Shown: in pieces, positions 33,100-48,502 of the stretch
Numbering within the stretch: the first letter of the stretch is position 1
Layout: every line of letters starts with the position of its first letter
Assembly: GCF_900465345.1 (NCBI RefSeq)
Contig: NZ_UEGO01000011.1
Coordinates: 62,001 to 126,000, forward strand
DNA length: 64,000 nt
Source of the DNA: Asaia bogorensis
Lineage (GTDB): Bacteria > Pseudomonadota > Alphaproteobacteria > Acetobacterales > Acetobacteraceae
Reading direction: 5' to 3'
Program-made: the position numbers and the translations under genes
Notes under the pieces: model-generated
What the model was told of the DNA's origin: nothing
The model's input: the letters and a program-made list of their open reading frames with translations, nothing else
Databases searched by the model: none

Positions 33100-35562
33100 A
33101 TGAAATTCACTCTGTCCTGGCTGCGCGAGCATCTCGATTTCACGGTTTCGCTGGATGAGATCGTCAGCAAGCTCAATGCCATAGGCCTTGAGGTCGAGAG
33201 CGTCGAAAATCCCGCCGACTCGCTGCGTGGCTTCCGTGTCGCCAAGATTCTTGAGGCTCATCGTCATCCCGACGCTGACCGGTTGCAGGTCTGTGTGGTG
33301 GCCGCTGGTGGGGATTACGAGAAGGTGCAGGTCGTCTGCGGTGCGCCCAATGCCCGCGCCGGCCTCCATGTGATCTTTGCCCCGCCGGGAACCTATATCC
33401 CGGGCAGCGACATCACCATCAAGGCAGGCAAGATTCGCGGGCAGGAAAGCGGGGGTATGCTGTGTTCCCTCCGCGAGCTGGGTCTCGGGGCGGAAAGTGA
33501 CGGCATTGCCGAGCTGCCCGAGAATGTCGTGCTGGGTCAGCCCTATGCAGACTATGCGAAGCTCGATGACCCGGTGATTGATATCTCGATCACGCCCAAT
33601 CGTGGCGATGCCCTCAGCGTGCGTGGCATTGCCCGGGATCTGGCTGCTGCCGGATTGGGCCATCTCAAGCCGTGGCTGGTTGAAACAGTCGAGGGGCAGT
33701 TTGCCTCACCGATCAACTGGGACATCCAGTACGATACGGCATGCCCCTATATTGCCGGGCGTCTGGTACGTGGCGTGAAAAACCGCCCGAGCCCCGACTG
33801 GCTGCGTCAGCGCCTCGAATCGATCGGGCTCAAGCCGATCAGCGCGCTGGTCGACATCACCAATTATCTCACCTTCGATCTGGGGCGTCCGCTCCATGTG
33901 TTCGATGCGGGCAAGATCAGCGGCAACACCCTGTCTCTCACCCGTGCGGCACGTGAGACGTTCCGCGCACTGGACGGGCGCGATCTCGTTCTCGGCACGG
34001 ATGACCTTGTGATTGTCGATAGCGCTGGCGTGCAGTCTCTCGCTGGCCTGATCGGCGGTGAGGCGACGGGCGTTTCTGACGAAACGACGGATGTATTCAT
34101 TGAGGCCGCTCTGTTCGACGCGGTGCGTATCGCCCTGACGGGGCGCAGGCTCGGCATCCATACCGATGCCCGCCAGCGTTTCGAGCGTGGAATCGATCCG
34201 GCACTCGTTCTGCCCGGCCTGGAGGCTGCCACGCAGCTCATCCTGTCGCTTTGTGGCGGTGAGGCCAGTGAGATCACCAGCGCTGGTGCAGTTCCCGCCT
34301 GGCAGCGTGAGGCATGGCTGCGTTTCGATCGTCTCGAGACGCTGGGTGGCGTCGAAATCCCTTCGGGGGAAGCCACACGCATCCTTGAGCATCTTGGCTT
34401 TGCCGTGCGTGAGCAGGATGAGACACGCGCCTGTTTTGCGGTGCCATCATGGCGCAATGACGTGGCGACAGGTGTCACGCTCGATCAGGCACCCCATCTC
34501 GACCCTGCCCAGGCCCAGAACGCTGCGGCCTCGGTTCATGCCATCGAGGCAGAAAACGACCTGATCGAGGAAGTGCTGCGTATCTACGGGCTGGACTCGG
34601 TTCCCCCGTTGCCATTGCCGCTCAGGACAGCGATTGCCGCTCCCGCCCTGACGCCGGCACAGGCCCGTCTGGGCGATCTGCGTCGACTCTGCGCGTTGCG
34701 TGGGCTGGTGGAGACCGTTGGCTTCTCCTTCGTCTCGCATGAGGACGCCCTGCTGTTCGGTGGAGCGCCTGAGGGGCTGCGTCTGCTCAACCCGATCGCT
34801 TCCGACCTCAACCAGATGCGCCCCACGCCGCTGATCAATCTGGCCCGTGGGTGGCAGCGTAATGCGGCGCGTGGGCTGAGTGATGCGGCCCTGTTTGAAC
34901 TCGGCCCCTGCTTCCACGCAGATGGGCAGAAGCTCGTGCTGGCCGGGCTGCGTGGTGGTGAGACGCCAAGGCGCCCCGGCATGCGGGCACAACCCATGAC
35001 GTTGTGGGACGCCAAGGCGGATCTTATGGCGGCGCTCGAGGCACTCAAGCTTCCTGCCGAGGCGCTGAGCGTGACGGCCGATGCGCCCGGTCATTACCAT
35101 CCTGGCCGCTCGGGTGTTGTGCGTCAGGGTCCAAAGACGGTTCTGGGCTGCTTTGGCGAACTGCATCCCCGCGTAACACGCGCCATGGGCATCGACTCGA
35201 CGCTTGTGGTGTTCGAGATTTTCCTTGATGCCGTGCCGCTGCCCAAGGTCAAGCGTCGCCAGCCGCCTGCGCTCTCGGCGTTCCAGCCTGTCAGTCGCGA
35301 TTTTGCCTTCATCGTGGCACCAGGTGTGGAAGCTCAGGCCGTTCTCAAGGCCGCCCGTGGTGCCGAACGGGCGCTGATCAGCGATGTGAGCCTTTTCGAT
35401 GTGTATGAGGGCGGGTCGCTTGAGGCGGGCCATCGGTCATTGGGCATCGAGGTCACGCTTCAGCCCGTCAAGGCGAGCCTGACCGATGAGGAAATCGAGG
35501 CTGTTTCCGAAAAGATCATTGCAGCCGTTGCCAAGGCAACCGGCGCAACGCTGAGACGCTGA
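33100..35562 (+). CDS. pheT: Phenylalanyl-tRNA synthetase beta subunit
   Basis: An 820-residue partner of PheS. It has an N-terminal tRNA-binding OB domain (FRVAKILEAHRHPDADRLQVCVV), the B3/B4 editing domain, B5 domains with SITPNRGDALSVRGIARDL and ITNYLTFDLGRPLHVFD, and a C-terminal anticodon-binding domain (SAFQPVSRDFAFIV). The length is normal. An AAGGAG-like site precedes the ATG. lpxB follows after 6 bases, so the three genes form one transcription unit. Confidence 0.97.
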   Translation: MKFTLSWLREHLDFTVSLDEIVSKLNAIGLEVESVENPADSLRGFRVAKILEAHRHPDADRLQVCVVAAGGDYEKVQVVCGAPNARAGLHVIFAPPGTYIPGSDITIKAGKIRGQESGGMLCSLRELGLGAESDGIAELPENVVLGQPYADYAKLDDPVIDISITPNRGDALSVRGIARDLAAAGLGHLKPWLVETVEGQFASPINWDIQYDTACPYIAGRLVRGVKNRPSPDWLRQRLESIGLKPISALVDITNYLTFDLGRPLHVFDAGKISGNTLSLTRAARETFRALDGRDLVLGTDDLVIVDSAGVQSLAGLIGGEATGVSDETTDVFIEAALFDAVRIALTGRRLGIHTDARQRFERGIDPALVLPGLEAATQLILSLCGGEASEITSAGAVPAWQREAWLRFDRLETLGGVEIPSGEATRILEHLGFAVREQDETRACFAVPSWRNDVATGVTLDQAPHLDPAQAQNAAASVHAIEAENDLIEEVLRIYGLDSVPPLPLPLRTAIAAPALTPAQARLGDLRRLCALRGLVETVGFSFVSHEDALLFGGAPEGLRLLNPIASDLNQMRPTPLINLARGWQRNAARGLSDAALFELGPCFHADGQKLVLAGLRGGETPRRPGMRAQPMTLWDAKADLMAALEALKLPAEALSVTADAPGHYHPGRSGVVRQGPKTVLGCFGELHPRVTRAMGIDSTLVVFEIFLDAVPLPKVKRRQPPALSAFQPVSRDFAFIVAPGVEAQAVLKAARGAERALISDVSLFDVYEGGSLEAGHRSLGIEVTLQPVKASLTDEEIEAVSEKIIAAVAKATGATLRR

Positions 35563-35568
35563 GGCTCC

Positions 35569-36801
35569 ATGCCCCATTCTGCCATCACCCCTCGCGTCAT
35601 CTGGCTTCTGGCAGGTGAGGCCAGTGGTGATGTGCTGGGCGCCCACCTCATGCAAGCGCTTCACGCGCGCGACCCGCATCTGATTTTCGTTGGAATCGGC
35701 GGTCCGCGCATGGAGGCTCTGGGCCTTGCCAGCCTGTTCCCCATGCGGGATCTGGCGGTGATGGGGCTGGTGGAGGTGCTGCCGCGCATACGACAGCTTT
35801 CCCAGCGCCTGAACGAGGCGGTCAATGATGTGGTGCTGCGTCAGCCCGATCTGATTGTCACGATCGACTCTCCCGGGTTTGCACTGCGCTTTCTCAAGCG
35901 TCTGCGACATGTGACTGTACCGAAAATCCATTATGTCGGTCCGCAGGTCTGGGCATGGCATGAGAAGCGCGTCCATAGTTTTCCCGAACTCTGGGACCGG
36001 TTGCTTTGCCTCCTGCCGTTTGAGGTGGAGTGGTTCGGCGAGCGCGGCGTCGCTGTTGATTTCGTCGGTCATCCGGTGCTTCAGTCAGGGGCCGATCAGG
36101 GGGATGCGAAGCGCTTTCGGCTGCGTCATGGCATTGCCGACGAGGCACCTGTACTGATCCTGATGCCGGGCAGCCGTCGCTCCGAGGTGCCACGCCTTCT
36201 GCCGATTTACGGCAAGATGCTCGCCCTGCTGAAACAGCGTTTGCCGGGTATCGTGCCGGTCCTGCCGCTTTCGCCGCTTGTCGCCCAGACGGTACGCGCT
36301 GCCGTGGCACGCTGGCCGGTCAAGCCGATCATCGTGACCGAGCTGCATGACAAGCATGATGCTTTCGCCGCAGCAGGCGCAGCCCTGACCAAATCGGGCA
36401 CGTCGACGCTCGAGCTGGCTCTGGCGCATGTGCCGATGGCGGTGGCTTATCGCGTCAATCCGGTCACGGCGTTCATGGCGCGTCGTCTGATCAAGGTGAA
36501 ATATGTGGCGATGGTCAATCTGCTTGCAGGGCGGGAGGTTGTGCCCGAGCTTCTGCAGGAGCGCTGCACGCCAGAGGATCTGGCGGATGCGTCCTATGCC
36601 CTGTTGACCGACCCGGCGCTGGGGGCGGCGCAACGTGACGCCTTCGATGCGGTCATGGCGCAGCTGCGCCCTCCGGCATCGCCAAGCCATAACGGTACCC
36701 CGTCAGATGCGGCGGCAGAAGCGGTGCTGCGTATCCTGAACGAACGACGCCCGGTGACAGCGCTGGGGAGTGTCGCGACAACTGAGCCCGACGCGTCCTG
36801 A
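35569..36801 (+). CDS. lpxB: Lipid-A-disaccharide synthase
   Basis: A 410-residue inverting glycosyltransferase that joins UDP-2,3-diacylglucosamine and lipid X to make the lipid A disaccharide. GEASGDVLGAHLM at the N terminus, FVGIGGPRMEALG, IDSPGFALRFLK, HYVGPQVWAWHEKR and KSGTSTLELALAHVPMAVAYR are characteristic. It follows pheT by 6 bases. Acetic acid bacteria have unusual lipid A, but the core LpxB step is conserved. An 18-base palindrome overlaps its stop codon. Confidence 0.96.
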   Translation: MPHSAITPRVIWLLAGEASGDVLGAHLMQALHARDPHLIFVGIGGPRMEALGLASLFPMRDLAVMGLVEVLPRIRQLSQRLNEAVNDVVLRQPDLIVTIDSPGFALRFLKRLRHVTVPKIHYVGPQVWAWHEKRVHSFPELWDRLLCLLPFEVEWFGERGVAVDFVGHPVLQSGADQGDAKRFRLRHGIADEAPVLILMPGSRRSEVPRLLPIYGKMLALLKQRLPGIVPVLPLSPLVAQTVRAAVARWPVKPIIVTELHDKHDAFAAAGAALTKSGTSTLELALAHVPMAVAYRVNPVTAFMARRLIKVKYVAMVNLLAGREVVPELLQERCTPEDLADASYALLTDPALGAAQRDAFDAVMAQLRPPASPSHNGTPSDAAAEAVLRILNERRPVTALGSVATTEPDAS

Positions 36802-36813
36802 GACGTCTCAGGA
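36796..36813. repeat. Perfect 18-base palindrome over the lpxB stop codon
   Basis: TCCTGAGAC joined to GTCTCAGGA is an exact palindrome. As RNA it would give a 7-base stem with an ACGT loop. It has no T-run, so it is at best part of a transcript end or a processing site. Confidence 0.45.
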
Positions 36814-36965
36814 GGCACCTGCTGTGGGCCCAGCGGCCTCAGCGTGCCGAGGTGGGGGGTGTGATTCAGTGAGGGAAAGGCCCCGTTCGCGTCACGGATA
36901 AGCCCTCGGCAAGCGCCAGCCCTTTTCATCAGACGGGAAGAAAGAGGCAGGAAAAGAGGCAAGGC

Positions 36966-37388
36966 TCAGTGTGCGCTGCCATAGAGCTGTTCGGGGGTGA
37001 CTTCCGGCGCACTCGTATCCCGCAGCCCCTCAGGGACGACTTCATGATAAAAGCAGCTGCGACGGCCAGTGTGGCAAGCCACGCCTGTCTGGTCCACGAG
37101 CAACAGCACAGCATCGCGATCGCAATCCAGCCGGGCCGAAACAAGGGTCTGGCGCTGCCCAGAGCTCTCGCCCTTGCGCCAAAGCCTGTCGCGGCTGCGT
37201 GAATAGTAGCAGACCTGACCGGTTGCGAGCGTCTCGGCCAGCGCCTCGCGGTTCATCCAGGCCAGCATCAGAACATCATGCGGCGCCTCTGCCGCCTGGG
37301 CGAGGGCCGTGATCAGCCCATCCTCATTGAAATGCACCGTATCGAGCAGGGTGTCGATCGTCTGCTGATCGGGGGGGAGGTAGCTCAT
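36966..37388 (-). CDS. hisI: Phosphoribosyl-AMP cyclohydrolase
   Basis: A 140-residue enzyme of histidine biosynthesis that opens the adenine ring of phosphoribosyl-AMP. The metal-binding segment CDRDAVLLLVDQTGVACHTGRRSCFY and SRSRDRLWRKGESSGQ are diagnostic. It is the single-domain HisI form without a HisE fusion. The ATG overlaps the stop of the upstream YgfZ-like gene by ATGA. Confidence 0.95.
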   Translation of the reverse strand: MSYLPPDQQTIDTLLDTVHFNEDGLITALAQAAEAPHDVLMLAWMNREALAETLATGQVCYYSRSRDRLWRKGESSGQRQTLVSARLDCDRDAVLLLVDQTGVACHTGRRSCFYHEVVPEGLRDTSAPEVTPEQLYGSAH

Positions 37389-38182
37389 GATTCTTCGTCC
37401 TGAAACCAGTCGGGAATGATGGGTGTGAGGGTTACTCCCTCATGATGCACGGGCGTTGTCCAGACCTCGCGACGTAAAAAGGCAAGGCCATGCTGCCCGA
37501 GACTGCTGCGCATCTGACCGATCTCGCGCCCTTCAGCCATCAGAATGGTACCGCAGGGGGGGAGGGGACCATTACCCTGCACGGGCACCAGACGCTTTTT
37601 CACCAGCCCACGGTAATGGGTACGGGCGGTGAGTTCCTGCCCCATATAGCACCCCTTGGTGAAAGAGATGCCGTGCAGCCAATCGAAATTCGCCTCGATC
37701 AGCAAGGTCTTCTCGCTCTCGCAATCCTGCGCATCGGGCAGGCCCAGCGAGAGGCGGTGGACATGATAGGCGGTGAGATCGGCCTGATCGGCAGTGTCAG
37801 ATCCCTCAGTGACACGGCGCCATCCTGCATCAGGATGTCTCGGGTCACGACGTGCGCCCTCGTGGGGAGTGTCATCCCAGAGGGCTTCCACGGAAAGAGC
37901 GGTCCGCTCCAGCGCCACGTCAGCGCGCAGGCGGAACCGCATCAACCGGCTGATCAGAAAATCAGCGTGATCGGCAGGTACGTCGAGCAGAAGGCGCTCG
38001 CTCTCATACCATAAAAAGAAATCCGAAAGGTAGCGGCCCTGGGGTGTGAGATAGCCTGTCCAAATCAGAGTCTCGTCTGAGGCAGCATTGACGTCGTTCG
38101 ACACCAGTCCCTGAAGAAAGCTCACCCTGTCCCGGCCACTGAGGGAGAGAATAACGCGATCCGTGAGCCATGCTCTTGCCAT
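37385..38182 (-). CDS. ygfZ: YgfZ/GcvT-like folate-binding Fe-S protein
   Basis: A 265-residue protein of the YgfZ (Iba57) family, which uses tetrahydrofolate in the maturation or repair of Fe-S enzymes. The signature KGCYMGQE, with its essential cysteine, is present (about residue 185), and SLSGRDRVSFLQGLVSNDV is the N-terminal part. The ATG at 38182 is chosen because GGAG is 7 bases upstream; a longer frame to 38293 lacks support. It overlaps hisI by ATGA and faces the sensor gene at 38340 divergently. Confidence 0.92.
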   Translation of the reverse strand: MARAWLTDRVILSLSGRDRVSFLQGLVSNDVNAASDETLIWTGYLTPQGRYLSDFFLWYESERLLLDVPADHADFLISRLMRFRLRADVALERTALSVEALWDDTPHEGARRDPRHPDAGWRRVTEGSDTADQADLTAYHVHRLSLGLPDAQDCESEKTLLIEANFDWLHGISFTKGCYMGQELTARTHYRGLVKKRLVPVQGNGPLPPCGTILMAEGREIGQMRSSLGQHGLAFLRREVWTTPVHHEGVTLTPIIPDWFQDEES

Positions 38183-38339
38183 TTTCATTCTCCAATCCGG
38201 ACAGTATTGGATGGAGATGCGGGTTGCAGCCTGCTGAAACAAGAGAGAAAATGTGAAAGCGACGCATGCGTTATTCGTGCGTTGCCGTATCAACGCAAGT
38301 CATTCCCCTCAGGAGGGGATATCCTGGGAGGCGTGACTT

Positions 38340-40646
38340 TTGCCAGTTTCCGAGATCATTGACCCGGCCGATCCCGAAGCCGAAACGAGAAGACGCCGTC
38401 TGATCGAACTCGTAGGCCCGATCTTTGGCGTTGTTCTTGTCATTGTGGTCATTGTTGTTGTCACGCTTCATTCCTATCACAAGACGCGCGACGGGGTGAT
38501 TGCGCTTACCCGCGATCTGTTGCGCGAGGAACAGAAAAACCTGACGCAGCAGGTTTCAGACTATCTGGCCCCAGCTCCGGCGACTGCAACGGTGGCGCGT
38601 GACCTGCTGACCGATCCGGTGACGGATGAGCCACCCCAGGTCTTTCTGAATTATGGCGCGTCCATGCTGCGCAATGTCGAGCAGGTGGAGAGCTTCTATC
38701 TTGCCGATGATCGTGGCTCGTTCTGGTTTATCGATCGTGCGCCAAAGGATATCGCCGATGGCATGGAATGGGTGCATCTGCTGCGGGACAAGAATGTTTT
38801 CCGGCACTGGTATTATGACAAGAACAATGTGCTTGTCCGCACGAGTGACACGCCGGGCAAGAATTACGATCCGCGTCAGCGCCCCTGGTATAAGGGAGCC
38901 TTCGAGCATCCGGACCTGAACTGGTCAGACCCCTATCCCACCGTTGCCACCGAACAGCTCATCGTGACAGCCGCAAGTGTTCTACATACGTCCGATGGGC
39001 ATCAGGCCGTCTTTGCCATCAACATCTCCCTCAACCGCCTGACGGATTTTCTTGCGGCCATCAAGATTGGCAAAAGCGGGCAGGCGGTTGTGGTGGACAA
39101 GGAGGGGCGTCTGATTGCAGGCAGTCATCTGCTGGATGTGGCGCGAAAGGCGAACTGGCAGTTCGACAAGATGCAGCTCGACCCCGCTACGCAGCCGGTT
39201 TTCACACGCGCGCTCTCGCTGTTCCACATCTACGGGGCGGGTGTGCACCTCATCAAGGCGCATGACACGCAATACGTTGCCATCATGGCCTCGCTGCACA
39301 AGATCAGGCCAGGATGGGTGTTGCTGCTGAACGCGCCAGAGGACGATTTTGCGGCCTTCGCTGCCGCGGCAGGGCGGCAGGGCTTCCTTTTCTCGATGGT
39401 GATTGTCGTGCTGGCCGGGCTGCTGGCAGGGTTTCTGGTGCGTCAGAACCGCCGGACCGAAAGTCTGCGTCGCCAGATCCGGTATGAACGCGCCCAGGTC
39501 AAGGCCGAGAGCAACGCGCTCAATGCCATGGCCGGAACGCCCCATCTCCTCGACCCCGGACACGATGCACCGCTTCTGACACAACGCCTGGCCGAACTGG
39601 CCCGGGCAAGGCGTGTGAGCCTCTGGCGGTCGGTTGGCGAGGAGGAGCGTCTCCTGTGCGAAGACTCCTATGACCGGACGACCGACGCCCATAGTGCGGG
39701 CATGGAACTGGCCCATAGCGATCTCAAGAACTTCTTTGCCATGTTGATGTCGGGTGAGGTGATCGAGAGCGATCACGCCTCGGCACAGGAGGGGCTGCGT
39801 ACCTTCCAGCGCATGGTCATGAGCCAGATCGGCTCGAAATCTGTCTATATCCAGCCTATTCTCGCCAGAGGCACGGTTATCGGCATGGTGGTGCTGGAAG
39901 ACGCGGCCCGTCCCCATGCGGTCTCGCACATCATTGCGATTGTTGCCGAGATTGCGGCCGTCCGTTTTGCGAGCATGAGGGCCGATGAGGCATCAGCTGG
40001 AAAGCCGGAGCAGAAGCAGCGCGAGGATTATGGTGCCATCACCACGCGACTGAATGAAGGCTTCATTGCCGCACCCGGTGACAACAGCGCTGGCGGTCTC
40101 AAGGCCGGGCAATATGCGATGGTCCCGGTGGCGACAGTCCTGTTTCAGGACTCGAAGTCGGAAGCAACTGTTGATCTGATCCCGATCGTCCAGACGCTGG
40201 TGGAGCGGTTTCAGGACGTCATCCAGCATGCCGGGCTGTTTTCGGCTCAGGTTCTGGGCGGCAGGCTTGTGCTGATTGGCGGGTGTTCACAGGATCCCGA
40301 CCCCGATGCGGCACGGCGTGTTGCCGATGCGCTGCTGGCCCTGCGTGAACTGGCGCTTGTGACACTGTCCGACGCCGAACTGACCCCGAGCTTCCGTATT
40401 GGCCTCGATGTCGGGCAGGCCTTCGGGGCGACGCTGGGTCAGGATCCGGGCGTGTTCAATATCTGGGGCGAGGCGCCTCAGACATCGGAGCTGCTGGCCA
40501 TCAGTGCCCCTGACTCAGGGACAATCCAGGTGTCAGAGGCGGCCCATGCGTTGCTGCGTGATTACTATCTGTTCCGGCCGCGCGGCATGTTCTACCTACC
40601 GGGCCTTGGCATCACCAACACCTATGTTCTGGCAGCCAAGCGTTGA
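38340..40646 (+). CDS. dCache-GAF sensor with a cyclase-like C-terminal domain
   Basis: A 768-residue membrane protein. It has one helix (about 22-43), a large periplasmic double-Cache region (about 45-340, with RAPKDIADG and DPRQRPWYKGAF typical of dCache), a second helix (about 345-367), a GAF-like domain (about 400-545) and a C-terminal domain (about 590-765) resembling class III nucleotide cyclases, including FRIGLDVGQAFGATLG and FNIWGEAPQTSELL. The two metal-binding aspartates and the transition-state asparagine/arginine of active cyclases are not evident, so it is probably non-catalytic. The TTG start has GGAGG 8 bases upstream. It overlaps the MlaE-like gene by TTGA and so is built into the lipid transport operon. 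Confidence 0.85.
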   Translation: MPVSEIIDPADPEAETRRRRLIELVGPIFGVVLVIVVIVVVTLHSYHKTRDGVIALTRDLLREEQKNLTQQVSDYLAPAPATATVARDLLTDPVTDEPPQVFLNYGASMLRNVEQVESFYLADDRGSFWFIDRAPKDIADGMEWVHLLRDKNVFRHWYYDKNNVLVRTSDTPGKNYDPRQRPWYKGAFEHPDLNWSDPYPTVATEQLIVTAASVLHTSDGHQAVFAINISLNRLTDFLAAIKIGKSGQAVVVDKEGRLIAGSHLLDVARKANWQFDKMQLDPATQPVFTRALSLFHIYGAGVHLIKAHDTQYVAIMASLHKIRPGWVLLLNAPEDDFAAFAAAAGRQGFLFSMVIVVLAGLLAGFLVRQNRRTESLRRQIRYERAQVKAESNALNAMAGTPHLLDPGHDAPLLTQRLAELARARRVSLWRSVGEEERLLCEDSYDRTTDAHSAGMELAHSDLKNFFAMLMSGEVIESDHASAQEGLRTFQRMVMSQIGSKSVYIQPILARGTVIGMVVLEDAARPHAVSHIIAIVAEIAAVRFASMRADEASAGKPEQKQREDYGAITTRLNEGFIAAPGDNSAGGLKAGQYAMVPVATVLFQDSKSEATVDLIPIVQTLVERFQDVIQHAGLFSAQVLGGRLVLIGGCSQDPDPDAARRVADALLALRELALVTLSDAELTPSFRIGLDVGQAFGATLGQDPGVFNIWGEAPQTSELLAISAPDSGTIQVSEAAHALLRDYYLFRPRGMFYLPGLGITNTYVLAAKR

Positions 40647-41449
40647 GTGACGAAATTCCCCTCTACAGGCGCCTGCTGCGCCGCCTGGGTGCGCTGACAA
40701 GGCGACAGATGCGGTTCTCACTCATGCTCGTCGGGGCGAGCTGGGGCGTGATACGCGAAGCACTGCGCCCGACCTCGTGGCGCCGGACAGTGCTGCATGA
40801 GTTCAAGAACACGCTGCGACAGGCCGCGGGCGGTGGGCTGTTCAGCACGCTTTTCACGGCGGCGCTCACGGGGTTCGGCATTGTGGCGCAGGCAATCTAC
40901 TGGCTGGGTATTGCCGGTATGGCCGATAGCACTGACTCTCTGCTTGCTACCGTGCTCGTGCGTGAAATTGCCCCGGTTCTCGTGGGCATCATCCTGCTCG
41001 GCCGAAGTGCCATGCTGAGCCTGACGCAGCTTGGACAGCTGACGCTGGGTGGTGAATTGCGTGCGCTTCAGGCTCAGGGGATCGATCCCTTCATGACACT
41101 GGTCATGCCACGCGCGCTGGCGATGATGCTGAGTTCCTTCACGCTGGGCATGGTGTTCAGCATCATCTCACTGTCGGTCGGATACGGCGTCTGTCGTGTC
41201 CACTCCGTCATCACCATGCCGCTCTGGACGTTCCTCTACGATATCGTCGGGGCGATGAAGCCGATCGATTATCTCGGGATCCCCCTCAAGCTGACGATCA
41301 GCGGCTTTCTGCTGAGTCTCGCCACCCAGCTGACCGGTCTCGATGCCACGCGCTCGGATACGATCGCGACCCTTCTGCCGCGTGGTTTTGCACGCGGTAT
41401 TCTCGTGATCATGGTCGTTAATGTCGTGCTCGGGGTGACAGTCGCATGA
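40643..41449 (+). CDS. MlaE/YrbE-type ABC permease
   Basis: A 268-residue integral membrane protein of the MlaE family, the permease of ATP-driven phospholipid transport across the periplasm. The core REIAPVLVGIILLGRSAM followed by ELRALQAQGIDPFMTLVMPR matches the conserved MlaE segment, with changes where others have AAELGTMKVTEQIDALE. Five or six membrane helices are visible. The TTG start overlaps the sensor stop (TTGA) and the stop overlaps the next gene (ATGA). The substrate is likely a lipid, but this is by family only. Confidence 0.9.
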   Translation: MSDEIPLYRRLLRRLGALTRRQMRFSLMLVGASWGVIREALRPTSWRRTVLHEFKNTLRQAAGGGLFSTLFTAALTGFGIVAQAIYWLGIAGMADSTDSLLATVLVREIAPVLVGIILLGRSAMLSLTQLGQLTLGGELRALQAQGIDPFMTLVMPRALAMMLSSFTLGMVFSIISLSVGYGVCRVHSVITMPLWTFLYDIVGAMKPIDYLGIPLKLTISGFLLSLATQLTGLDATRSDTIATLLPRGFARGILVIMVVNVVLGVTVA

Positions 41450-42147
41450 CCGACGACCTTTCTGCCGTACTGGAATTGCGCGAAGCCCGCCCCGTCTTTG
41501 AAGAAAGCGGTCTCACTTCCATTCCCTATTCGCTGCGCCTGATGCCGGGCGACTGCATGCTGATTGCCTGTCGTGATTCCGAGCGCGCCACACGTTTTGC
41601 GGATCTTTGCGCCGGTATGGCGCCGCTCGTCTCGGGACAGGTGCTGTGCCAGGGGCTTGATTGGGAAGCGCTGGCCGAGCCCCGGGCCTGGGCGCTGCGG
41701 GGGCGTATCGGCCGTGTGATGCAGCAGGGAGCCTGGATCGACCTGTTTGGTACCGATCTCAATATTCTTCTGCAACAGCTGCATCATACGCGCACGCCTA
41801 CAGAGGCGCTGATTGATGAGGCAATCGCGCTTTCCAGACGTTTTGGCCTGCCAGGTCTGCCTACATTGACCCCGGGAAGGCTGAGCGTGGCTGATCGGGC
41901 CAAGGCGGCCTGTGTGAGAGCCTTTCTTGGAGAGCCAAAGCTGCTCTTGCTGGAAGATCCGGTGGAGCTGGAGACTGCTGATATGATGACTGCCTTCCTT
42001 GCCGAGCTGACAGCCGCGCGTGAGCGTGGCTGCGGTGTGATCTGGTTTTCCCGCGAGCCGGATCTGTGGCGCGGTTACAATGCCGAGGGAACGCAGCGAT
42101 ACAGGTTGCTGGATGAGGGTCTGTTACCAATGAAGCAGGTGGTCTGA
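41446..42147 (+). CDS. Degenerate MlaF-like ABC ATPase subunit
   Basis: A 233-residue protein with the length and order of an MlaF-type nucleotide-binding subunit but with its motifs decayed. Where Walker A (GxxxxGKS/T) belongs, residues 41-49 read ACRDSERAT, lacking the glycines and the lysine. The signature region is LTPGRLSVAD (about 141-150), the Walker B is LLLLEDP with Glu and Asp reversed (about 167-172), and the switch histidine position is FSREP (about 201-205). The Q-loop (VMQQGAW) and overall fold remain. It overlaps both neighbours. Either the system runs without ATP hydrolysis, or another ATPase is recruited; the reading frame is intact with no sign of frameshift. Confidence 0.85.
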   Translation: MTDDLSAVLELREARPVFEESGLTSIPYSLRLMPGDCMLIACRDSERATRFADLCAGMAPLVSGQVLCQGLDWEALAEPRAWALRGRIGRVMQQGAWIDLFGTDLNILLQQLHHTRTPTEALIDEAIALSRRFGLPGLPTLTPGRLSVADRAKAACVRAFLGEPKLLLLEDPVELETADMMTAFLAELTAARERGCGVIWFSREPDLWRGYNAEGTQRYRLLDEGLLPMKQVV

Positions 42148-43112
42148 TGTTTCGTGTCCGTTCAAACGCCAGCACTGACAGCCGCACCCGCCCTCTGTTG
42201 CGCATCCGCTATGCCGATGAATGGGTCGGTATGCTGGTCGTCGCGACTTTCGGCCTGTTCATATTTGCAATTATCGAGGCCGGTGTCCTGCGAGACTGGC
42301 TGACGCCCTCAGGCAAGCTGCATTTCAATCTGCCCGAGAGCGGTATCGCGGGCCTGGCCGTGGGAAATGACATCGAGCTTATGGGGATCCGTATCGGCTC
42401 GATCCGTGCGGTGAAGATCAACCCGCATGGCAATATGTACGCCATTGCCGATATCGACCCACAATTCGAGCCCTATATCCGCAAGGATAGCCGCGCCATC
42501 ATCCGTCATCGCTTTGTTGTGGCCGGGGCAAGCTATATCGAGCTTGAGCGCAGCAAAGGCCCGGCGATGGATTGGGAGTTTGCTGAGCTTGAAGCCACGG
42601 TCGAGCCCAACCCGGCCGATATGATCACCAAGACCATCAGTGATATCCGTGCCGGCATGATGCCGAGCTTGCGTAATGCGGACAAGATCATGGCTGACCT
42701 CGCTGCCGTGACGACATCTATCCGCAACGGTAAAGGCACAGTCGGTGGGCTGATGATGGATGACACGCTGCTGAAACACGCCGATGAAGTAATCAGGACA
42801 CTTCAGGACTCCATAGCGCAGCTCAAGCCGATCGAGGCCCAGATATCGGGCGTTCTGAAGCAGACGCAGGGCACGATGGATAACCTGCGTTCAAGCAGCA
42901 ATGACGTGAAGAAAGCCACGCCGCAGCTCAAGGACACGATGGCACATCTGGATGCAGCAAGTGCCCAGCTTCCGGCACTGCTGACACAGGCACAGGCCAC
43001 GACCATCAGCCTCAAGCGCCTGACCGACCAGTTGCGTGGTCTCTGGATCCTGGGTGGCAGCTCGGGCAAGGCCCCCGCGCGCAGGCTTCCCGCTGGAGAT
43101 ATCAAGCCATGA
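42147..43112 (+). CDS. MCE-domain (MlaD-like) substrate-binding protein
   Basis: A 321-residue protein with an N-terminal cytoplasmic tail (about 27 residues), a single membrane anchor (about 28-50) and one MCE domain (about 55-140: ESGIAGLAVGNDIELMGIRIGSIRAV, then HRFVVAGASYIELE). The remainder is a helical, probably coiled-coil stretch (about 155-300). MlaD-type proteins form hexameric lipid tunnels in the periplasm. The start overlaps the ATPase-like gene (TGATG) and the stop overlaps the lipoprotein gene (ATGA). Confidence 0.93.
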   Translation: MFRVRSNASTDSRTRPLLRIRYADEWVGMLVVATFGLFIFAIIEAGVLRDWLTPSGKLHFNLPESGIAGLAVGNDIELMGIRIGSIRAVKINPHGNMYAIADIDPQFEPYIRKDSRAIIRHRFVVAGASYIELERSKGPAMDWEFAELEATVEPNPADMITKTISDIRAGMMPSLRNADKIMADLAAVTTSIRNGKGTVGGLMMDDTLLKHADEVIRTLQDSIAQLKPIEAQISGVLKQTQGTMDNLRSSSNDVKKATPQLKDTMAHLDAASAQLPALLTQAQATTISLKRLTDQLRGLWILGGSSGKAPARRLPAGDIKP

Positions 43113-43906
43113 GAACGCCGCGTTTCCTGTTCCTTGGGACATTGATGGGGGTAACGGCCCTGACGGGGTGTGGCGGCGCTGGGAGCAGGGACGCTTCACG
43201 ACCCGATCAGGATTACCTGAATGCCATGGAGGTCGGGCGGGATTCATTCGACCTGACCCATGCGGACCAGGCCAAAACGCAGTTCGAGACTGCGTATGGC
43301 AGAGCCCTGCTTCGTGATGATGTGCTTGCTATACGCGATGCCGGGTACAATCTTGCCGTTGCCGAACTCGCCATGGGTGATGCGAAAGCAGCGCTGGATA
43401 CTGTACGCCGCGTACATGGCGATATGGCGCTCCGGGGCGATGCACCCAGCCCGGCGCTCGATCTTGTGGCGGTAGCCGCCTATTGTCGACTTGGGCAAAA
43501 TACCCAGGCGATCCAACTCGTGCGACAGATCAGCACGGATGATCCGGCTCTGGTTGAGAGACGTGCCTTTCTGCAGGGTATCGCTGCGGATGAGCTGGGT
43601 GATATGGCTCTCCTGTCTACCTCACTGAACGCTCTGCCAGTGTCACCCAGGCCTCCCAGGTTGGAGCGAGCGGACCGGGCTGAACTCACATCGCGACTGC
43701 TACTCCGTCAGGGGCAGTTCGCTCAGGCCGAGGCACAGGCGCTGGTGGCAGTCGATCTGCGTCGCGACATGCTGGATTATCGCGGGCTGGCCAGAGCACT
43801 CGATGGTGCCGCTCGTGCTGCCCAGGCTGCGGGGGAGACCAGCCGGGCTGCCACATATCGGGATCGCGCAATGCAAAGCCGCGCCCAGCTTGGCGACAAG
43901 GGCTGA
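43109..43906 (+). CDS. Lipoprotein with TPR-like helical repeats
   Basis: A 265-residue protein with a lipobox (VTALTGC, Cys about 21) for outer- or inner-membrane anchoring. The mature part is a run of helix pairs with TPR-like spacing (ALLRDDVLAIRDAGYNLAVAELAMGDAKAALDTV). No Mla lipoprotein (MlaA) or ABC-associated DUF330 (PqiC-like) signature is clear. It is the last gene of the five-gene overlapping operon (ATGA with the MCE gene), and is likely the periplasmic or outer-membrane partner of the transporter. Confidence 0.8.
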   Translation: MRTPRFLFLGTLMGVTALTGCGGAGSRDASRPDQDYLNAMEVGRDSFDLTHADQAKTQFETAYGRALLRDDVLAIRDAGYNLAVAELAMGDAKAALDTVRRVHGDMALRGDAPSPALDLVAVAAYCRLGQNTQAIQLVRQISTDDPALVERRAFLQGIAADELGDMALLSTSLNALPVSPRPPRLERADRAELTSRLLLRQGQFAQAEAQALVAVDLRRDMLDYRGLARALDGAARAAQAAGETSRAATYRDRAMQSRAQLGDKG

Positions 43907-43945: not shown

Positions 43946-44248
43946 TCAGGTGGTGGCGGGTTTGTTCGAAACCTGCTTGCCATGCATCTGGCGCAGGGAA
44001 ATGGCAGTCAGGATAAGGCAGGCGCAGATCCCTGCGACAGATGCCGTGCCAAACCAGACCATAACCCCGTAGACTGCACCCTTCCGGCAGCAAAGATAAA
44101 GTGCGAGCAGGGGAAGAAGGGTACGGCAAGGGTGAAGCGCATAGCCGGAAATATGCGGCAGCGTCAGGATGCGGCACATCTTGGGCTGAAGAAGTCCGTG
44201 CGCGAGGAATGCGATGATCCACAGGAAAAGACCAAAGACAGGCGTCAT
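43946..44248 (-). CDS. DUF3325-like small membrane protein
   Basis: A 100-residue protein with three predicted membrane helices: FGLFLWIIAFLAHGLL, LLPLLALYLC and FGTASVAGICACLILTAIS. The ATG overlaps the PepSY gene stop (ATGA), making it the last gene of the operon that flanks the siderophore receptor. DUF3325 proteins usually follow a PepSY-TM protein and a TonB receptor in this order, which is the basis of the name; sequence identity alone is weak. Confidence 0.65.
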   Translation of the reverse strand: MTPVFGLFLWIIAFLAHGLLQPKMCRILTLPHISGYALHPCRTLLPLLALYLCCRKGAVYGVMVWFGTASVAGICACLILTAISLRQMHGKQVSNKPATT

Positions 44249-45801
44249 GGAGAGATCAGTCTGCGATGAATGATAAAGGCGATGAGTCCGAGGCCCAGTA
44301 TGGTCAGATCGACGCCCTTATAGACGTCGAGGCTCGTCAGCAGGTTGTTCATATGGCGTGAGAGCAGATCAAGCGGCAGCAGGGCCGTCGAGAAGACAGC
44401 AAACAGGAAAAACTGCTCATTCCATGCCGAGCGTGCTCCACCCGTGAAGCTGCGTCCCGCCGCATGAAGCAAGGTGAGCAACCAGACTGCGAAGAACAGG
44501 CGAATCTCCAGGTGGCTTCGGTCAGGCAGATCGGCCCATATGAGACGATTGGCCCAGAGATAGGCAAGACAGGCTAAAGGCAGGCCCGTCGTTACCGCGA
44601 TGGCCAGGGTCTCAGCCAGACGAAACCCGAAGGTTTTTGCCTTCCTGGGACGGTGCTTCATGAGGAAAATCACCAGACCAGCCGACATCATGGCGCTGCC
44701 AACAAGTCCGCTGATGAAATAGAGCCAGCGCAAAGGCAGGGGCGCCCATCGGATGAAATGCAGCCCACGCAATACGCCGCCGAGGCGGTGCAGCGTATCT
44801 GGTGTTTTCACTGTTCTGAGCAGTGTGCCGTCCTGTTCTGAAAATTCCAGATGATCACGAGACAGGATAAAGGACGCTGAATCGGCTTTCGTCATCGATA
44901 CCTTGCCATGATCGAACAGGACAAGCCCGATCGAGCCGTCACCAAATGCCTCTTCAGCCTTGTGAAACATGGGCGCAAGCGCTGCACGGACCGGGCCTGG
45001 GCTGGCTGTTGTATCTGCGGGGCCTGAAGTCATGGCAGATCGGGTAGCGAAAGGGTGGGGGCTCGTCTGTGCGGCAATACGGTCTGTCGGGATCTTGGCA
45101 CCTGTGTGGCCATGAGTGGCAGTCCCGTCCGACGGGCGGCCGTGATGTCCCGTGCTGAACATTGGGAAGAGCCGGGGGGCATGGATCACAGCGCCCGTAT
45201 AGGCCATCATGACCATGAAGGGCAGAAACAGCAGTCCTGCAAGAATATGGGCGTCCATGAAGGCGCGGCCCTTGGAGGCAAAGGGCCTGAAAAGCAGGAG
45301 ATCGCTGAAGATCGATCTGAAATGGATGATAATTCCCGATCCAACCGCCACAAGCAGACCCACCGCTGCGATTTCAGTCAGCATGTTGCCCCAGAAGGGG
45401 CCGTAATAAAGCGAGTGATGAAGGTCAAAGAACAACTGACCGCCGCCAGTCTGGCGTGTGGCAATAGGGAAAGCGTCCGCAGGGCGAAACGCCGCGCCAA
45501 TAAAGACATGCCCATCGTAATGCAGGATACGGATGATCGGGTCACGCGGGGTAGGCAGGGTGATGAACGCATTCTGGCCTGCATCGCGTAATTCGCCTGC
45601 TATCGTGCCAACCTGATTGAGCGCATCATCAGTCATCGGTCCGGTCGTATAATGGGATAGCTCCGGTTGCATCCAGCGCGTCAGTTCGGTGTCGAACAAC
45701 GCCAGCGAACCGCCGGTGAAAATGACGACCAGGACCAGCCCGCCGATGAAGCCCACCCATTCGTGGAGCCAGCCCATCCTGTTGCGTAGCGTATCGCGCA
45801 T
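44245..45801 (-). CDS. PepSY-associated membrane-helix protein
   Basis: A 518-residue inner membrane protein with about five helices. The first (LHEWVGFIGGLVLVVIFTGGSLALFDTEL, about 12-42) is the PepSY-TM signature, and a large periplasmic region follows, with a helix near 195-215 (ILAGLLFLPFMVMMAYTGAVIHAP) and a C-terminal bundle. It is linked in many bacteria to reduction or release of iron from siderophores at the inner membrane, but the mechanism is not shown by sequence. It overlaps both neighbouring genes. Confidence 0.88.
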   Translation of the reverse strand: MRDTLRNRMGWLHEWVGFIGGLVLVVIFTGGSLALFDTELTRWMQPELSHYTTGPMTDDALNQVGTIAGELRDAGQNAFITLPTPRDPIIRILHYDGHVFIGAAFRPADAFPIATRQTGGGQLFFDLHHSLYYGPFWGNMLTEIAAVGLLVAVGSGIIIHFRSIFSDLLLFRPFASKGRAFMDAHILAGLLFLPFMVMMAYTGAVIHAPRLFPMFSTGHHGRPSDGTATHGHTGAKIPTDRIAAQTSPHPFATRSAMTSGPADTTASPGPVRAALAPMFHKAEEAFGDGSIGLVLFDHGKVSMTKADSASFILSRDHLEFSEQDGTLLRTVKTPDTLHRLGGVLRGLHFIRWAPLPLRWLYFISGLVGSAMMSAGLVIFLMKHRPRKAKTFGFRLAETLAIAVTTGLPLACLAYLWANRLIWADLPDRSHLEIRLFFAVWLLTLLHAAGRSFTGGARSAWNEQFFLFAVFSTALLPLDLLSRHMNNLLTSLDVYKGVDLTILGLGLIAFIIHRRLISP

Positions 45802-46106
45802 CAGGGCATTCCAGCCAAAGCGAGCAGAATGGGCAGGGACACGGAGAGGGCTGCGTGAGAGACGTGACGCCCAGTTGCAACCCTGCCTCCACGGCGGGGC
45901 AGGCTGAATACGATGAGCACGATGATGGGCATCAGTGCAAAGACGCAGAGAAACCCCACAACCAATAGCGGATCACTTCCGAAATGCCGGAACAGGGCCA
46001 GGACGCAAAGACTGGCAATGTAACTCACAGCCGAGCCGATCATGAGGCGCCGGACCCATGAACGAATGTGTTTCCGGCCCTGTTTGTAACTGAGACTCTT
46101 TCGCAT
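45801..46106 (-). CDS. DUF3649-like small membrane protein
   Basis: A 101-residue protein with a basic head, then three hydrophobic segments: GSAVSYIASLCVLALFRHF, VVGFLCVFALMPIIVLIVFSLP and LSVSLPILLALAG. The ATG at 46106 has AGGAAG 5-6 bases upstream; the longer frame to 46121 begins with TTG. The last base of its stop overlaps the first base of the PepSY start. It lies first in the operon, divergent from the siderophore receptor. Family assignment relies on topology and on the TonB receptor, DUF3649, PepSY, DUF3325 order. Confidence 0.65.
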   Translation of the reverse strand: MRKSLSYKQGRKHIRSWVRRLMIGSAVSYIASLCVLALFRHFGSDPLLVVGFLCVFALMPIIVLIVFSLPRRGGRVATGRHVSHAALSVSLPILLALAGMP

Positions 46107-46170
46107 GTGCTTCCTGTGCAACAGCGCCTAGCTTCGCGACGCGATTATCGCAGGTCAGGACAAAGTTTAG

Positions 46171-46192
46171 TTGCGAGCGTTTCTTATTCGCG
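46171..46192. promoter_or_regulatory. Possible Fur-type site between divergent iron genes
   Basis: The segment TTGCGAGCGTTTCTTATTCG plus CG contains symmetric GCGA/TCGC ends and TTCTTATTCGC, close to alphaproteobacterial Fur boxes. It lies about 65 bases upstream of the DUF3649 start and about 80 upstream of the receptor start, so it could control both. Confidence 0.4.
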
Positions 46193-46273
46193 TCTATTTG
46201 GCCGCGTCATTTACCCCTTGTCAATGAGATTAGCCTCTTGAGCCTGCTCACCTTGTCTGCCCTGAACCCCGGA

Positions 46274-48502
46274 ATGCCGCGTCCACGACGTCTGGCACTT
46301 TCTGCCCTGCTCATGCTGTCTGCAACCCTGCCATGCCAAGCTTTCGCGCAGGATCAGACACCCACGCAGGCACAATCGCAATCGGGGACGGTGAAAGACA
46401 GTCAGAAAAACGCGGGAGGGGTTAACAAGGCGGGTCGCCACGCCCTGACCAGCGATGAGCAGATCGAGGTCAAGGCGCAGCGTCAGAACCGTATGGAAGT
46501 AAAGTCAGGCGGTAATCTGGGTGCGCTGGGTAACAAGAAGGGGCTGGATGTGCCCTTCAACGTGCGCAGCTACACTTCGGCGCTGATCCTCAACCAGCAG
46601 TCCCAGACGCTGGGCGAGGTGCTAATGAATGACCCGACCGTGCGCACAACGCTCGGTTACGGCAATTTCTCCGAGCAGTTCGTGATCCGTGGCTTCCCTG
46701 TCTATGGCGATGACGTGGCGATTGACGGGCTTTACGGCATCACGCCGCGCCAGCTCGTCTCGCCCCAGCTTTACGAACAGGTGCAGGTGCTCAATGGTGC
46801 CTCGGCGTTCCTCAACGGTGCCGCACCGGGTGGCACGGCACAGGGCGGCAATATCAATCTCGAATTCAAGCATGCCGGCGATACCCCTCTGACGCGTGTC
46901 ACGGGCGACTACACCAGCTCCTCGATGGGCGGAGGCGCTGTCGATGTGGGTCGACGTTTTGGCCAGGACAAGCAGTTCGGGGTGCGGATCAACGTTGCAG
47001 GTCGTAGCGGTGTCGCGGCCATCGACCGGGAGAAGCGCCATCAGGTTGCGGTAGGTGGCGGTTTCGACTGGCATGACCGGGCAGAACGCACGCGTGTTAC
47101 CGTGGACATGGCCTATGAGAACCAGGGCGTGAATGGCGGGCGCGGTGGCGTGTTCTTGAGTGGTGCGACCTCAGTACCGAAAGTGCCGGGCGCAGGATCG
47201 AATTACGGTCAGCCCTGGACCTACACGGAGCTGAACTACATCTATGGCAAGCTGAAGGTGGAGCATGATTTCAGCAAATACCTGACGGCTTATGCGCAGT
47301 TCGGCGGTCTGGGAGGCAACGAGAAGGGCAATTACGGTAGCACCTATGTCACCAACAGCCAGACCGGGGCGGGTTATAACGGGGCCATGTATGTGCCCTA
47401 TGTGCAGACCAATGAAAGCACACAGGCCGGGCTGCGCTCGCATTTCAACACGGGTGGCATCAAGCATGAAATCAATGCCGGTGGGTCTGGCCTGTGGGAG
47501 GAAAATGCTTCCGCCTATGCTCTCGCTCTGACGAGGCAGGCCACGAACATCTATCATCCGACGCTTTATAATGCGTCGCAGCCCGAAACGTATATTGGCG
47601 GAAACATCGATAATCCGCAGAAGAACAATACCACGCGTCTGTGGAGCCTCTTCTTCTCAGATACCGTCTCGGCATTTCATGACCGGGTCGCGCTGACGGC
47701 AGGCTTTCGCTATCAATCGATCAAGACAGTCGCCTATAATTACGGCAAGAGCACGACTTCCTACGATCAGGGAGCATTCACGCCGGTTGTGGGGCTTGTG
47801 GTGCATCCTACACGCCAGACGTCGATCTATTTCAATCGCATTGAGGGATTGGCGCCCGGCCCTCAGGCCAGCGGACAGGTTGTCAATCTGGGGCAGATTT
47901 TCCCGCCTTACCAGACGGTCCAGTACGAGCTTGGGGCGAAATACGATATCGGCCGTTTCTCGACTGCTGTGTCGATTTTCCAGATCGATCAGCCCAACGC
48001 CTATACGTCTGCCATTGCAGGCACCAGCAACAGTATCTTCTCGGTCAACGGATTGCAGCGTAACCGGGGGATCGAATTTACCGTCAATGGTGAGATCGTG
48101 AAGGGTCTGCGCTTCAATGGCGGCACGTCAATCATAGATGCTAGCCAACGTCGCACATCAGGCGGCCTTTATGACGGCAATCGCTCCATCGGCGTGCCGG
48201 GCTACACGATCAACGGCAATCTCGAATATGATCTGCCGTTCATCCGCGGCGCGACGCTTACGGGGCGTGTGATCCAGACCGGCCATCAATATGCCGACAA
48301 TCTCAACAAGATGCGTGTGCCAAACTGGACGCGTTTCGATGTGGGTGCACGCTACAGCTTTGTTGTGGAGCACAAGGCCATCACGACCCGTCTGGGTGTC
48401 GATAACCTTGCCAATACGCGTTATTGGGAAAGCGCATTCGGTGGTTATCTGCTTCAGGGCCTGCCGCGCACGTTCAAGTTTTCTGTCACGGCTGATTTCT
48501 GA
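46274..48502 (+). CDS. TonB-dependent siderophore receptor
   Basis: A 742-residue outer membrane receptor. The ATG at 46274 gives an ordinary signal peptide (RRLALSALLMLSATLPCQAFA); a TTG 12 codons earlier (46238) is also possible. The plug includes DVPFNVRSYTSALI, EVLMNDPTVRTT, FVIRGFPVYGDDVAIDGLYG and VQVLNGASAFLNGAAPGGTAQGGNINL, typical of the ferrichrome/FhuA-FpvA siderophore subclass. The barrel ends VTADF. Divergent PepSY, DUF3649 and DUF3325 genes complete the uptake locus. Iron control through the site at 46171 is inferred. Confidence 0.92.
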   Translation: MPRPRRLALSALLMLSATLPCQAFAQDQTPTQAQSQSGTVKDSQKNAGGVNKAGRHALTSDEQIEVKAQRQNRMEVKSGGNLGALGNKKGLDVPFNVRSYTSALILNQQSQTLGEVLMNDPTVRTTLGYGNFSEQFVIRGFPVYGDDVAIDGLYGITPRQLVSPQLYEQVQVLNGASAFLNGAAPGGTAQGGNINLEFKHAGDTPLTRVTGDYTSSSMGGGAVDVGRRFGQDKQFGVRINVAGRSGVAAIDREKRHQVAVGGGFDWHDRAERTRVTVDMAYENQGVNGGRGGVFLSGATSVPKVPGAGSNYGQPWTYTELNYIYGKLKVEHDFSKYLTAYAQFGGLGGNEKGNYGSTYVTNSQTGAGYNGAMYVPYVQTNESTQAGLRSHFNTGGIKHEINAGGSGLWEENASAYALALTRQATNIYHPTLYNASQPETYIGGNIDNPQKNNTTRLWSLFFSDTVSAFHDRVALTAGFRYQSIKTVAYNYGKSTTSYDQGAFTPVVGLVVHPTRQTSIYFNRIEGLAPGPQASGQVVNLGQIFPPYQTVQYELGAKYDIGRFSTAVSIFQIDQPNAYTSAIAGTSNSIFSVNGLQRNRGIEFTVNGEIVKGLRFNGGTSIIDASQRRTSGGLYDGNRSIGVPGYTINGNLEYDLPFIRGATLTGRVIQTGHQYADNLNKMRVPNWTRFDVGARYSFVVEHKAITTRLGVDNLANTRYWESAFGGYLLQGLPRTFKFSVTADF

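Follow-up and report, generated by a model that had tools for sequence, protein, structure and literature searches.

A five-gene MCE-type transport cassette of Asaia bogorensis joins a motif-less ABC subunit to a dCache-GAF-cyclase-like sensor gene

Organization of the five-gene cassette

The window analyzed here is a stretch of 64,000 nucleotides of Asaia bogorensis (NCBI RefSeq assembly GCF_900465345.1, contig NZ_UEGO01000011.1, positions 62,001 to 126,000 of the forward strand), from a genome of 3.38 Mb in 43 contigs. At window positions 38340-43906, the list of open reading frames (ORFs) and reading of the sequence reveal five plus-strand ORFs, each overlapping the next, which encode a sensor with dCache, GAF, and class III cyclase-homology domains, an MlaE-family permease, a protein with the fold of an ATP-binding cassette (ABC) nucleotide-binding domain (NBD), an MCE protein, and a lipoprotein (Table 1). 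An initial annotation, made from the sequence alone, had reported overlaps at every junction, and these are indeed present as TTGA (40643-40646), ATGA (41446-41449), TGATG (42145-42149), and ATGA (43109-43112).

Pfam matches for the sensor, the permease, and the MCE protein all exceed the curated cut-offs, bearing out the names "MlaE permease" and "MCE protein" given in the initial annotation, while nothing above cut-offs was found for the cassette proteins among the NCBIfam matches listed. The permease and MCE genes lie together, as in Mla systems, and the MCE domain follows an N-terminal hydrophobic segment (by reading), as expected of an MCE system. By Pfam, the membrane component scores as MlaE and not as a PqiA/LetA-type protein. 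The last product is a lipoprotein, as proposed: the lipobox Cys21 is invariant among 29 aligned sequences, and the structure model consists of twelve helices (predicted local distance difference test [pLDDT], 91.9) whose solved Foldseek matches are TPR proteins. Neither MlaB (STAS), MlaC, nor MlaA was found among the genes at 38340-43906 by ORF and Pfam analysis. The cassette is thus an MCE-type inner-membrane transporter with an ABC subunit devoid of ATPase motifs, inherited with a dCache-GAF-degenerate cyclase sensor.

Table 1. Features of the cassette, in window coordinates
Feature	Position	Strand	Description and basis
Likely ribosome binding site	38326..38331	+	GGGAGG, 8 nucleotides 5' of the sensor TTG start; sequence reading
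Sensor gene	38340..40646	+	768 amino acids (aa), TTG start; hydrophobic helix-dCache-hydrophobic helix-GAF-degenerate class III cyclase-homology domain; both helices by reading
dCache_1 domain	38667..39131	+	aa 110-264; Pfam 64.4 bits; Y176, R181, W183, Y184 kept, motif Asp replaced by Asn228
GAF domain	39576..39956	+	aa 413-539; Pfam 25.8 bits (cut-off 22.4)
Class III cyclase-homology domain	40152..40634	+	aa 605-765; Pfam Guanylate_cyc 39.6 bits; degenerate
Sensor/permease overlap	40643..40646	+	4 bases, TTGA; sequence reading; kept across loci
MlaE-family permease	40643..41449	+	268 aa; Pfam MlaE 110.3 bits
Permease segment	41033..41068	+	aa 131-142, GQLTLGGELRAL (canonical MlaE of the genome on contig C17: GTMRVTDQIDAL); alignment
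Pseudo-ATPase	41446..42147	+	233 aa; ABC NBD fold without ATPase motifs; alignments and structure model
Walker A region replacement	41566..41592	+	aa 41-49, ACRDSERAT; alignment of 128
MCE protein	42147..43112	+	321 aa; hydrophobic segment at the N terminus (by reading), then a single MCE domain and a long C-terminal part; Pfam
MCE (MlaD) domain	42348..42548	+	aa 68-134; Pfam MlaD 44.8 bits
Lipoprotein	43109..43906	+	265 aa; lipobox LTGC, Cys21; TPR-type superhelix of 12 helices; alignment and model

An NBD fold without ATPase motifs

The third product had been described as an ABC subunit, and its fold agrees with that description. A single-chain prediction yields a complete NBD model (pLDDT 92.2), for which the best Foldseek E-value is that of E. 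coli MlaF (6xgz_E, E = 8.4e-14, TM-score 0.76), and the best 50 VIA-align matches show Z-scores of 21.3 to 24.7 over 210 to 226 residues, headed by LolD (24.7), with FtsE at 24.1 and MlaF at 22.8. What did not hold is the implied ATPase. The Pfam ABC_tran match reaches only 19.9 bits against a cut-off of 25, and 29 of 36 aligned members of the family match this model at an E-value of 1 or lower (best, 1.5e-7). We collected 159 loci, 128 of them distinct by their third protein, and aligned the latter. The Walker A Lys (position 48) and the GxxxxGK[ST] pattern occur in 0/128 and are likewise missing from four planctomycete proteins aligned. The Walker B Asp is retained once, with Glu in 125/128, the catalytic Glu in 14/128, the H-loop His in 2/128, and the Q-loop Gln in 27/128, including the window protein. 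The signature Gly sites vary across the alignment, and the window protein itself is without LSGGQ, Walker B Asp, catalytic Glu, and H-loop His. In both canonical MlaF copies encoded elsewhere in the same genome, the matching columns hold the Lys of Walker A, the Asp of Walker B, the catalytic Glu, and the His of the H-loop. With these motifs gone, the third protein does not appear from its sequence to be a working ATPase; we consider it a conserved pseudo-ATPase, which should not hydrolyze ATP in the known way.

Loss of the ATPase motifs might suggest a decaying pseudogene or an annotation artefact. This explanation is next to impossible, since the matched frame is free of stops in 148 of the 150 places listed by the third-protein search, two new residues have become fixed over several phyla (D150 and E170, each in 125/128), and the ratio of nonsynonymous to synonymous substitution rates (dN/dS) was 0.048 to 0.084 in six comparisons with Asaia-group loci, values that are rough because dS was about 1 or above in five of the six. 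The pseudo-ATPase gene is under purifying selection, and we therefore rejected both variants of this explanation.

An ordinary Mla operon was also rejected, given the loss of the NBD motifs. In E. coli, MlaF variants K47A and E170Q fail to complement, according to PMC7367683, and a complex with MlaF K47R has no ATPase activity, according to PMC5016091. As the equivalents of K47 and E170 are lost in the pseudo-ATPase, the mechanism of the cassette must differ. The label "Mla-like" of the initial annotation is therefore right for the MlaE and MCE components but misleading as a whole, because E. coli Mla needs ATP turnover by MlaF, and MlaB, MlaC, and MlaA have no counterpart in the cassette. In the VIA-align superposition, MlaF (6xgz_A) aligned to the model as far as residue 234; the C-terminal extension of MlaF, placed at residues 247-269 in PMC7367683, is thus missing from the pseudo-ATPase. 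A motor subunit deprived of its ATP-burning parts implies that the transporter must be worked by some means other than its own ATPase, for which the sensor is a possible candidate.

Distribution and gene order

After a permissive first screen, the distribution searches scored no more than 7 to 11 top candidates in each genome, so that absences in them are not proof. The third-protein query found matches at E = 1.1e-32 or better in 179 of 395 genomes of the order, all from one family, and the rest was background at E-values around 3e-13 or worse. Outside this family, a profile search gave strong matches in 2 of 380 alphaproteobacterial genomes (248 and 262 bits; next, 87 bits). In the phylum of the Desulfuromonadales and Desulfobacterales metagenome-assembled genomes (MAGs), the sole match was the starting genome (1/247 and 1/297, draws that share genomes), as it was in the gammaproteobacterial class (1/274), and the planctomycete phylum gave 4/246, starting genome counted. 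A contig scan with one peptide pattern, in which 80 of 98 relatives were listed, also recovered members in MAGs labelled Deltaproteobacteria, Sedimentisphaerales, and Limisphaerales. From these counts, the pseudo-ATPase is a common protein among acetic acid bacteria, with rare, scattered occurrences in other groups.

The order sensor-permease-NBD-MCE-lipoprotein was found in 116 of the 128 distinct loci, including Desulfobacterales and a gammaproteobacterial MAG. The sensor ORF is shorter than 700 aa in eight of the 116: two begin at the edge of their stretch (L247, L250), one is a REC-cyclase (L258), and five are short or split (L054, L068, L082, L193, L228). Among the 12 loci off this order, three are cut by contig ends (L080, L222, L251), seven are sensorless (five of Roseomonas type, L249, and L259), and two have no MCE or lipoprotein gene. 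Among 120 distinct loci, the sensor and permease genes overlap by 4 bases in 98 and by 1 base in nine. Overlap at 107 of 120 junctions, together with the conserved order, is more than chance, although these counts are not independent because many loci come from close relatives. The initial annotation had reasoned that a sensor found away from MlaE in related genomes would speak against its proposal, and the sensor precedes MlaE in most loci. Overlaps by themselves, however, do not establish its further suggestion of production in fixed proportion.

Several loci depart from the intact arrangement. Rhodopila-type loci L139 and L255 contain the sensor, permease, and pseudo-ATPase, with MCE and lipoprotein genes not found within about 8 and 6 kb downstream, respectively. 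Some acetic acid bacteria have broken cassette genes (L127 in genome G021, and L054, L068, and L082, where the sensor or permease is split), and in genomes G071 and G080 a TGA lies inside the ABC match of the third-protein search; the broken genes reflect either decay or draft assembly errors. Two genomes have two cassette copies each, both with a sensor in G781 (L251, L256) and neither with an in-operon sensor in G780 (L249, L281).

A sensor with a degenerate cyclase-homology domain

By sequence, the folds of the sensor domains resemble those of dCache_1 receptors such as PctA, the best-scoring solved dCache chain in profile comparison, and of class III adenylate cyclases, with the C-terminal domain aligning to adenylate cyclase chains (4p2m and 7yz9, both mycobacterial). 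The amino-acid-sensor motif considered here comprises Y121, R126, W128, Y129, and D173 in PctA numbering, a set drawn in part from PMC11245519 and PMC10104139. Over 120 loci, its positions are Y in 95, R in 89, W in 115, and Y in 74, and the last site is Asp in 29 and Asn in 82. All seven distant sensors examined have the Asp. According to PMC11245519 and PMC10104139, sensors of amino acids and amines show strict or good conservation of this Asp; since it is Asn in Asaia, the Asaia sensor probably binds a different ligand.

The designation "cyclase-like" given to this protein is correct as a description of the fold. In the window, the first metal site is kept (Asp604), while the second metal Asp is replaced by Gly641 and the Asn/Arg pair by Gln714 and Leu718, and a working cyclase was therefore ruled out. 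Over 120 loci, the first Asp is found in 88, the second site is Asp in 11 and Glu in 8, and the Asn and Arg sites are kept in only 5 and 4. Unlike PctA and class III cyclases, most of these sensors thus have the motif Asp changed to Asn and the catalytic residues lost, and they are genetically tied to a lipid-type transporter.

The Guanylate_cyc match, the alignment to adenylate cyclases, and the frequent first metal Asp would suit an explanation by co-transcription only, in which an ordinary adenylate or guanylate cyclase shares a promoter with a lipid transporter and sends its signal elsewhere. We hold this to be very improbable in view of the near absence of the second Asp, the Asn, and the Arg, of the overlap with the permease gene, and of the failure to find the full sensor in the 23 relatives without the pseudo-ATPase (see below).

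Genetic linkage of sensor and transporter

A profile of the full sensor recovered it in all three control genomes with an in-operon sensor and in 0/23 relatives without the pseudo-ATPase, where weak partial single-domain hits occurred in three. The gene trees of the cassette largely agree with one another. Of 78 well-supported splits in the sensor tree, 66 are shared by the ABC tree and fewer, 55, by the lipoprotein tree; in this comparison of cassette genes only, the agreement is partly species history, as vertical descent alone yields it. The distant phyla form one split in three of the five trees (permease, 0.94; ABC, 0.82; MCE, 0.99), and not in the sensor and lipoprotein trees. Taken with the overlaps, the trees provide good support for the sensor and transporter being one functional unit, as the initial annotation had proposed, within which gating would be the sensor's part.

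The input module varies among loci. In the Desulfuromonadales MAG locus L258, three proteins occupy the place of the sensor: a histidine kinase of CHASE-PAS type bearing two receiver domains, an Hpt protein, and a REC-cyclase encoded by a gene that overlaps MlaE. As the input module varies and the cyclase-homology domain stays, a single type of domain appears to connect two kinds of input with the same transporter. When the full-sensor profile was applied to further genomes, it retrieved this type of protein, the genome's own REC-cyclase, in G783, a cyclase domain on a contig other than that of the cassette in G784, and nothing in G780. In planctomycete locus L279, the lipoprotein gene of the cassette faces, tail to tail, a separate gene for a cyclase-homology protein, and no match to such a protein was found in the other three planctomycete stretches. 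By reading, this 350-aa protein (L279:4671-5723) has Glu at both metal Asp sites and has lost the Arg but not the Asn. For the gene that precedes MlaE in L249, Pfam gave no match.

Proposed mechanism and alternatives

We tentatively favor an MCE lipid transporter whose NBD became a receptor-gated adaptor, a reading that we find plausible although short of probable. It draws on the loss of ATPase motifs with a kept fold and purifying selection, the remodeled permease segment described below, the conserved order and overlap, the agreeing trees, the swapped input module with its retained cyclase-homology domain, and the confinement of the full sensor, in the genomes searched, to those with the pseudo-ATPase; it also draws on the existence of ATPase-less MCE systems (PqiA, LetA) and the near absence of Walker A/xSGG ORFs around the cassette. 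The anatomy of the cassette can be read directly from the genes, and from it we infer gating. The transporter would move lipids, as its relatives do, with the MCE protein as a channel or needle that extends towards the outer membrane and ends at the TPR lipoprotein. The pseudo-ATPase would sit on the permease as a structural adaptor, onto which the dimeric cyclase-like domain of the sensor may dock, replacing the STAS protein MlaB. Binding of a small periplasmic ligand to dCache would then move the pseudo-ATPase pair and open or close the permease, lipids flowing down their gradient or by another force, so that receptor gating would replace the ATP drive. Extended to a general signal-gated ABC architecture, in which NBDs serve as a docking adaptor and either a dCache-GAF-pseudocyclase or a phosphorelay ending in a REC-cyclase opens or closes a lipid conduit between the membranes, the proposal becomes possible at best, with doubt prevailing.

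Several observations weigh against this adaptor reading. NCBIfam ranks DevA, FtsE, and LolD models above MlaF for the third protein, and VIA-align places LolD and FtsE chains above it, so that the grounds for "MlaF-like" are the Foldseek E-value and the MlaE and MCE neighbors. Six Roseomonas-type genomes keep the transporter, and the profile found the full sensor in 0/6 of them; loci L249 and L259 and the planctomycete stretches also have no sensor in the operon. Gating by the sensor cannot, for these reasons, be universal, and the six genomes with the transporter only make the sensor an accessory rather than an obligate part. Finally, the cyclase domains of L240 and L258 keep both metal Asp residues and might, judging from these residues, still bind a nucleotide.

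The retained metal residues of L240 and L258 would also suit a reversed direction, in which the dead transporter acts as a receptor for lipid load or envelope stress and signals to the sensor protein, which would relay to a partner. Transporters can report in this manner, as BceAB does to BceS, a non-hydrolyzing transporter could sense, and the first protein has the architecture of a receptor. However, the sensor owns a ligand domain, its output domain in the window has no catalytic residues, and the cassette is without a kinase or regulator. In L258, the position of the kinase relay, upstream of the REC-cyclase, suggests that signals flow towards the transporter. We regard the reversed direction as improbable.

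The main rival of the adaptor reading is ATP supplied in trans. The window genome encodes a canonical MlaE adjoining a Walker A-bearing MlaF on contig C17, and a longer MlaE, an MlaF with Walker A, an MCE protein, and a further small protein at C32:905-4448, a set that is Mpc-like by reading. Contig C39 has an MCE protein with three MCE matches, PqiB-like by reading. A search for MlaE also gave a canonical-scoring copy in 62 of the 63 pseudo-ATPase genomes covered, and the exception is G021, whose cassette is broken. Also counting against an ATP-free adaptor, then, ATP could come from an active MlaF encoded elsewhere, which would pair with the pseudo-ATPase in an asymmetric NBD dimer, leaving the cassette NBD as the regulatory half, or from one shared ATPase. 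A single ATPase, MceG, serves several Mce systems in mycobacteria. Pairing of a degenerate with an active site is moreover common among ABC exporters, according to PMC7756269.

Three observations speak against ATP in trans. The signature that would be needed to complete the ATP site of a partner is lost from the pseudo-ATPase along with the other motifs. An ORF with Walker A and xSGG lies no more than 3 kb from the cassette in only two of 128 loci; one is a long ORF antisense to the cassette and judged spurious, and the other is on the opposite strand in L246. The third concerns the permease, whose segment at aa 131-142 is presumably the NBD-facing coupling helix known from MlaFEDB structures. 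Cassette permeases have Gly137 in 122/127 and R, K, or H at position 140 in 109/127, while the two canonical MlaE paralogues of the genome read T-D-Q-I-D-A-L or N-E-E-I-D-A-L, with Asp at cassette position 140. The NBD-facing segment thus appears from the alignment to be remodeled along with the pseudo-ATPase, away from the form that accompanies an active MlaF. Considering these observations, we judge ATP in trans rather unlikely.

Relation to known transport systems

Like Mla (MlaFEDB), the cassette combines an MlaE-family permease, an MCE protein, and an NBD-fold subunit whose best Foldseek E-value is MlaF; unlike Mla, this NBD has no ATPase motifs or C-terminal extension, MlaB, MlaC, and MlaA are missing, and the operon starts with a sensor and ends with a TPR lipoprotein. 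Also comparable is the Brucella Mpc system, presented in PMC12436622 as a chimeric Mla-Pqi system with an MlaE-type permease, an NBD subunit, and a proposed envelope bridge. The cassette shares the permease type and the NBD subunit, and such a bridge is proposed for both, but in Mpc, by that account, the ATPase (MpcF) is well conserved and the permease carries a STAS domain. PqiABC and LetAB are described there as MCE lipid conduits whose inner-membrane proteins PqiA and LetA have no ATPase domain, in contrast to the MlaE permease and NBD-fold subunit of the cassette. In ABC transporters with a degenerate site, such as Pdr5, one site has lost its signature residues together with the Lys of Walker A, the catalytic Glu, and the His of the H-loop, as reported in PMC7756269; these transporters keep a second, active site, whereas the only NBD of our operon is degenerate.

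ATPase-less MCE conduits and ABC transporters with one degenerate site are thus already known (PMC12436622, PMC7756269); what appears new is the combination of a sensor with an MlaE transporter that has an NBD of its own, degenerate throughout. Among the literature matches listed, nothing described an ATPase-dead MlaF or this cassette, which is weak evidence as subscription papers fell mostly outside the scope of the search. The power source of MCE systems and the direction of lipid movement are debated, and a conserved MlaE-MCE system with a natural, ancient loss of the ATPase offers a test case for ATP-free lipid movement, and another for the control of bacterial lipid traffic by extracellular signals. 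If the adaptor reading is true, the cassette would be a receptor-gated lipid channel built out of an ABC transporter. In practical terms, naming by similarity would give misleading labels, "ABC transporter ATP-binding protein" and "adenylate cyclase," to two of the five proteins of a large bacterial family.

Genomic context of the cassette

Promoter-like sites (three, against a shuffle mean of 2.1) and terminator-like sites (three, against 3.7) are about as frequent as in shuffled sequences and so do not confirm the ends of the operon, and an Rfam scan of the window gave no match. On the 5' side (33100-38293) lie genes named by reading as pheT, lpxB, hisI, and a ygfZ-like gene, of which hisI and ygfZ are divergent from the sensor gene in many loci. 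The adjoining region at 44245-48502 encodes a PepSY-type membrane protein (minus strand) and a TonB-dependent receptor (plus strand), iron uptake genes by reading, and this pair is kept beside the cassette in Asaia and several near relatives.

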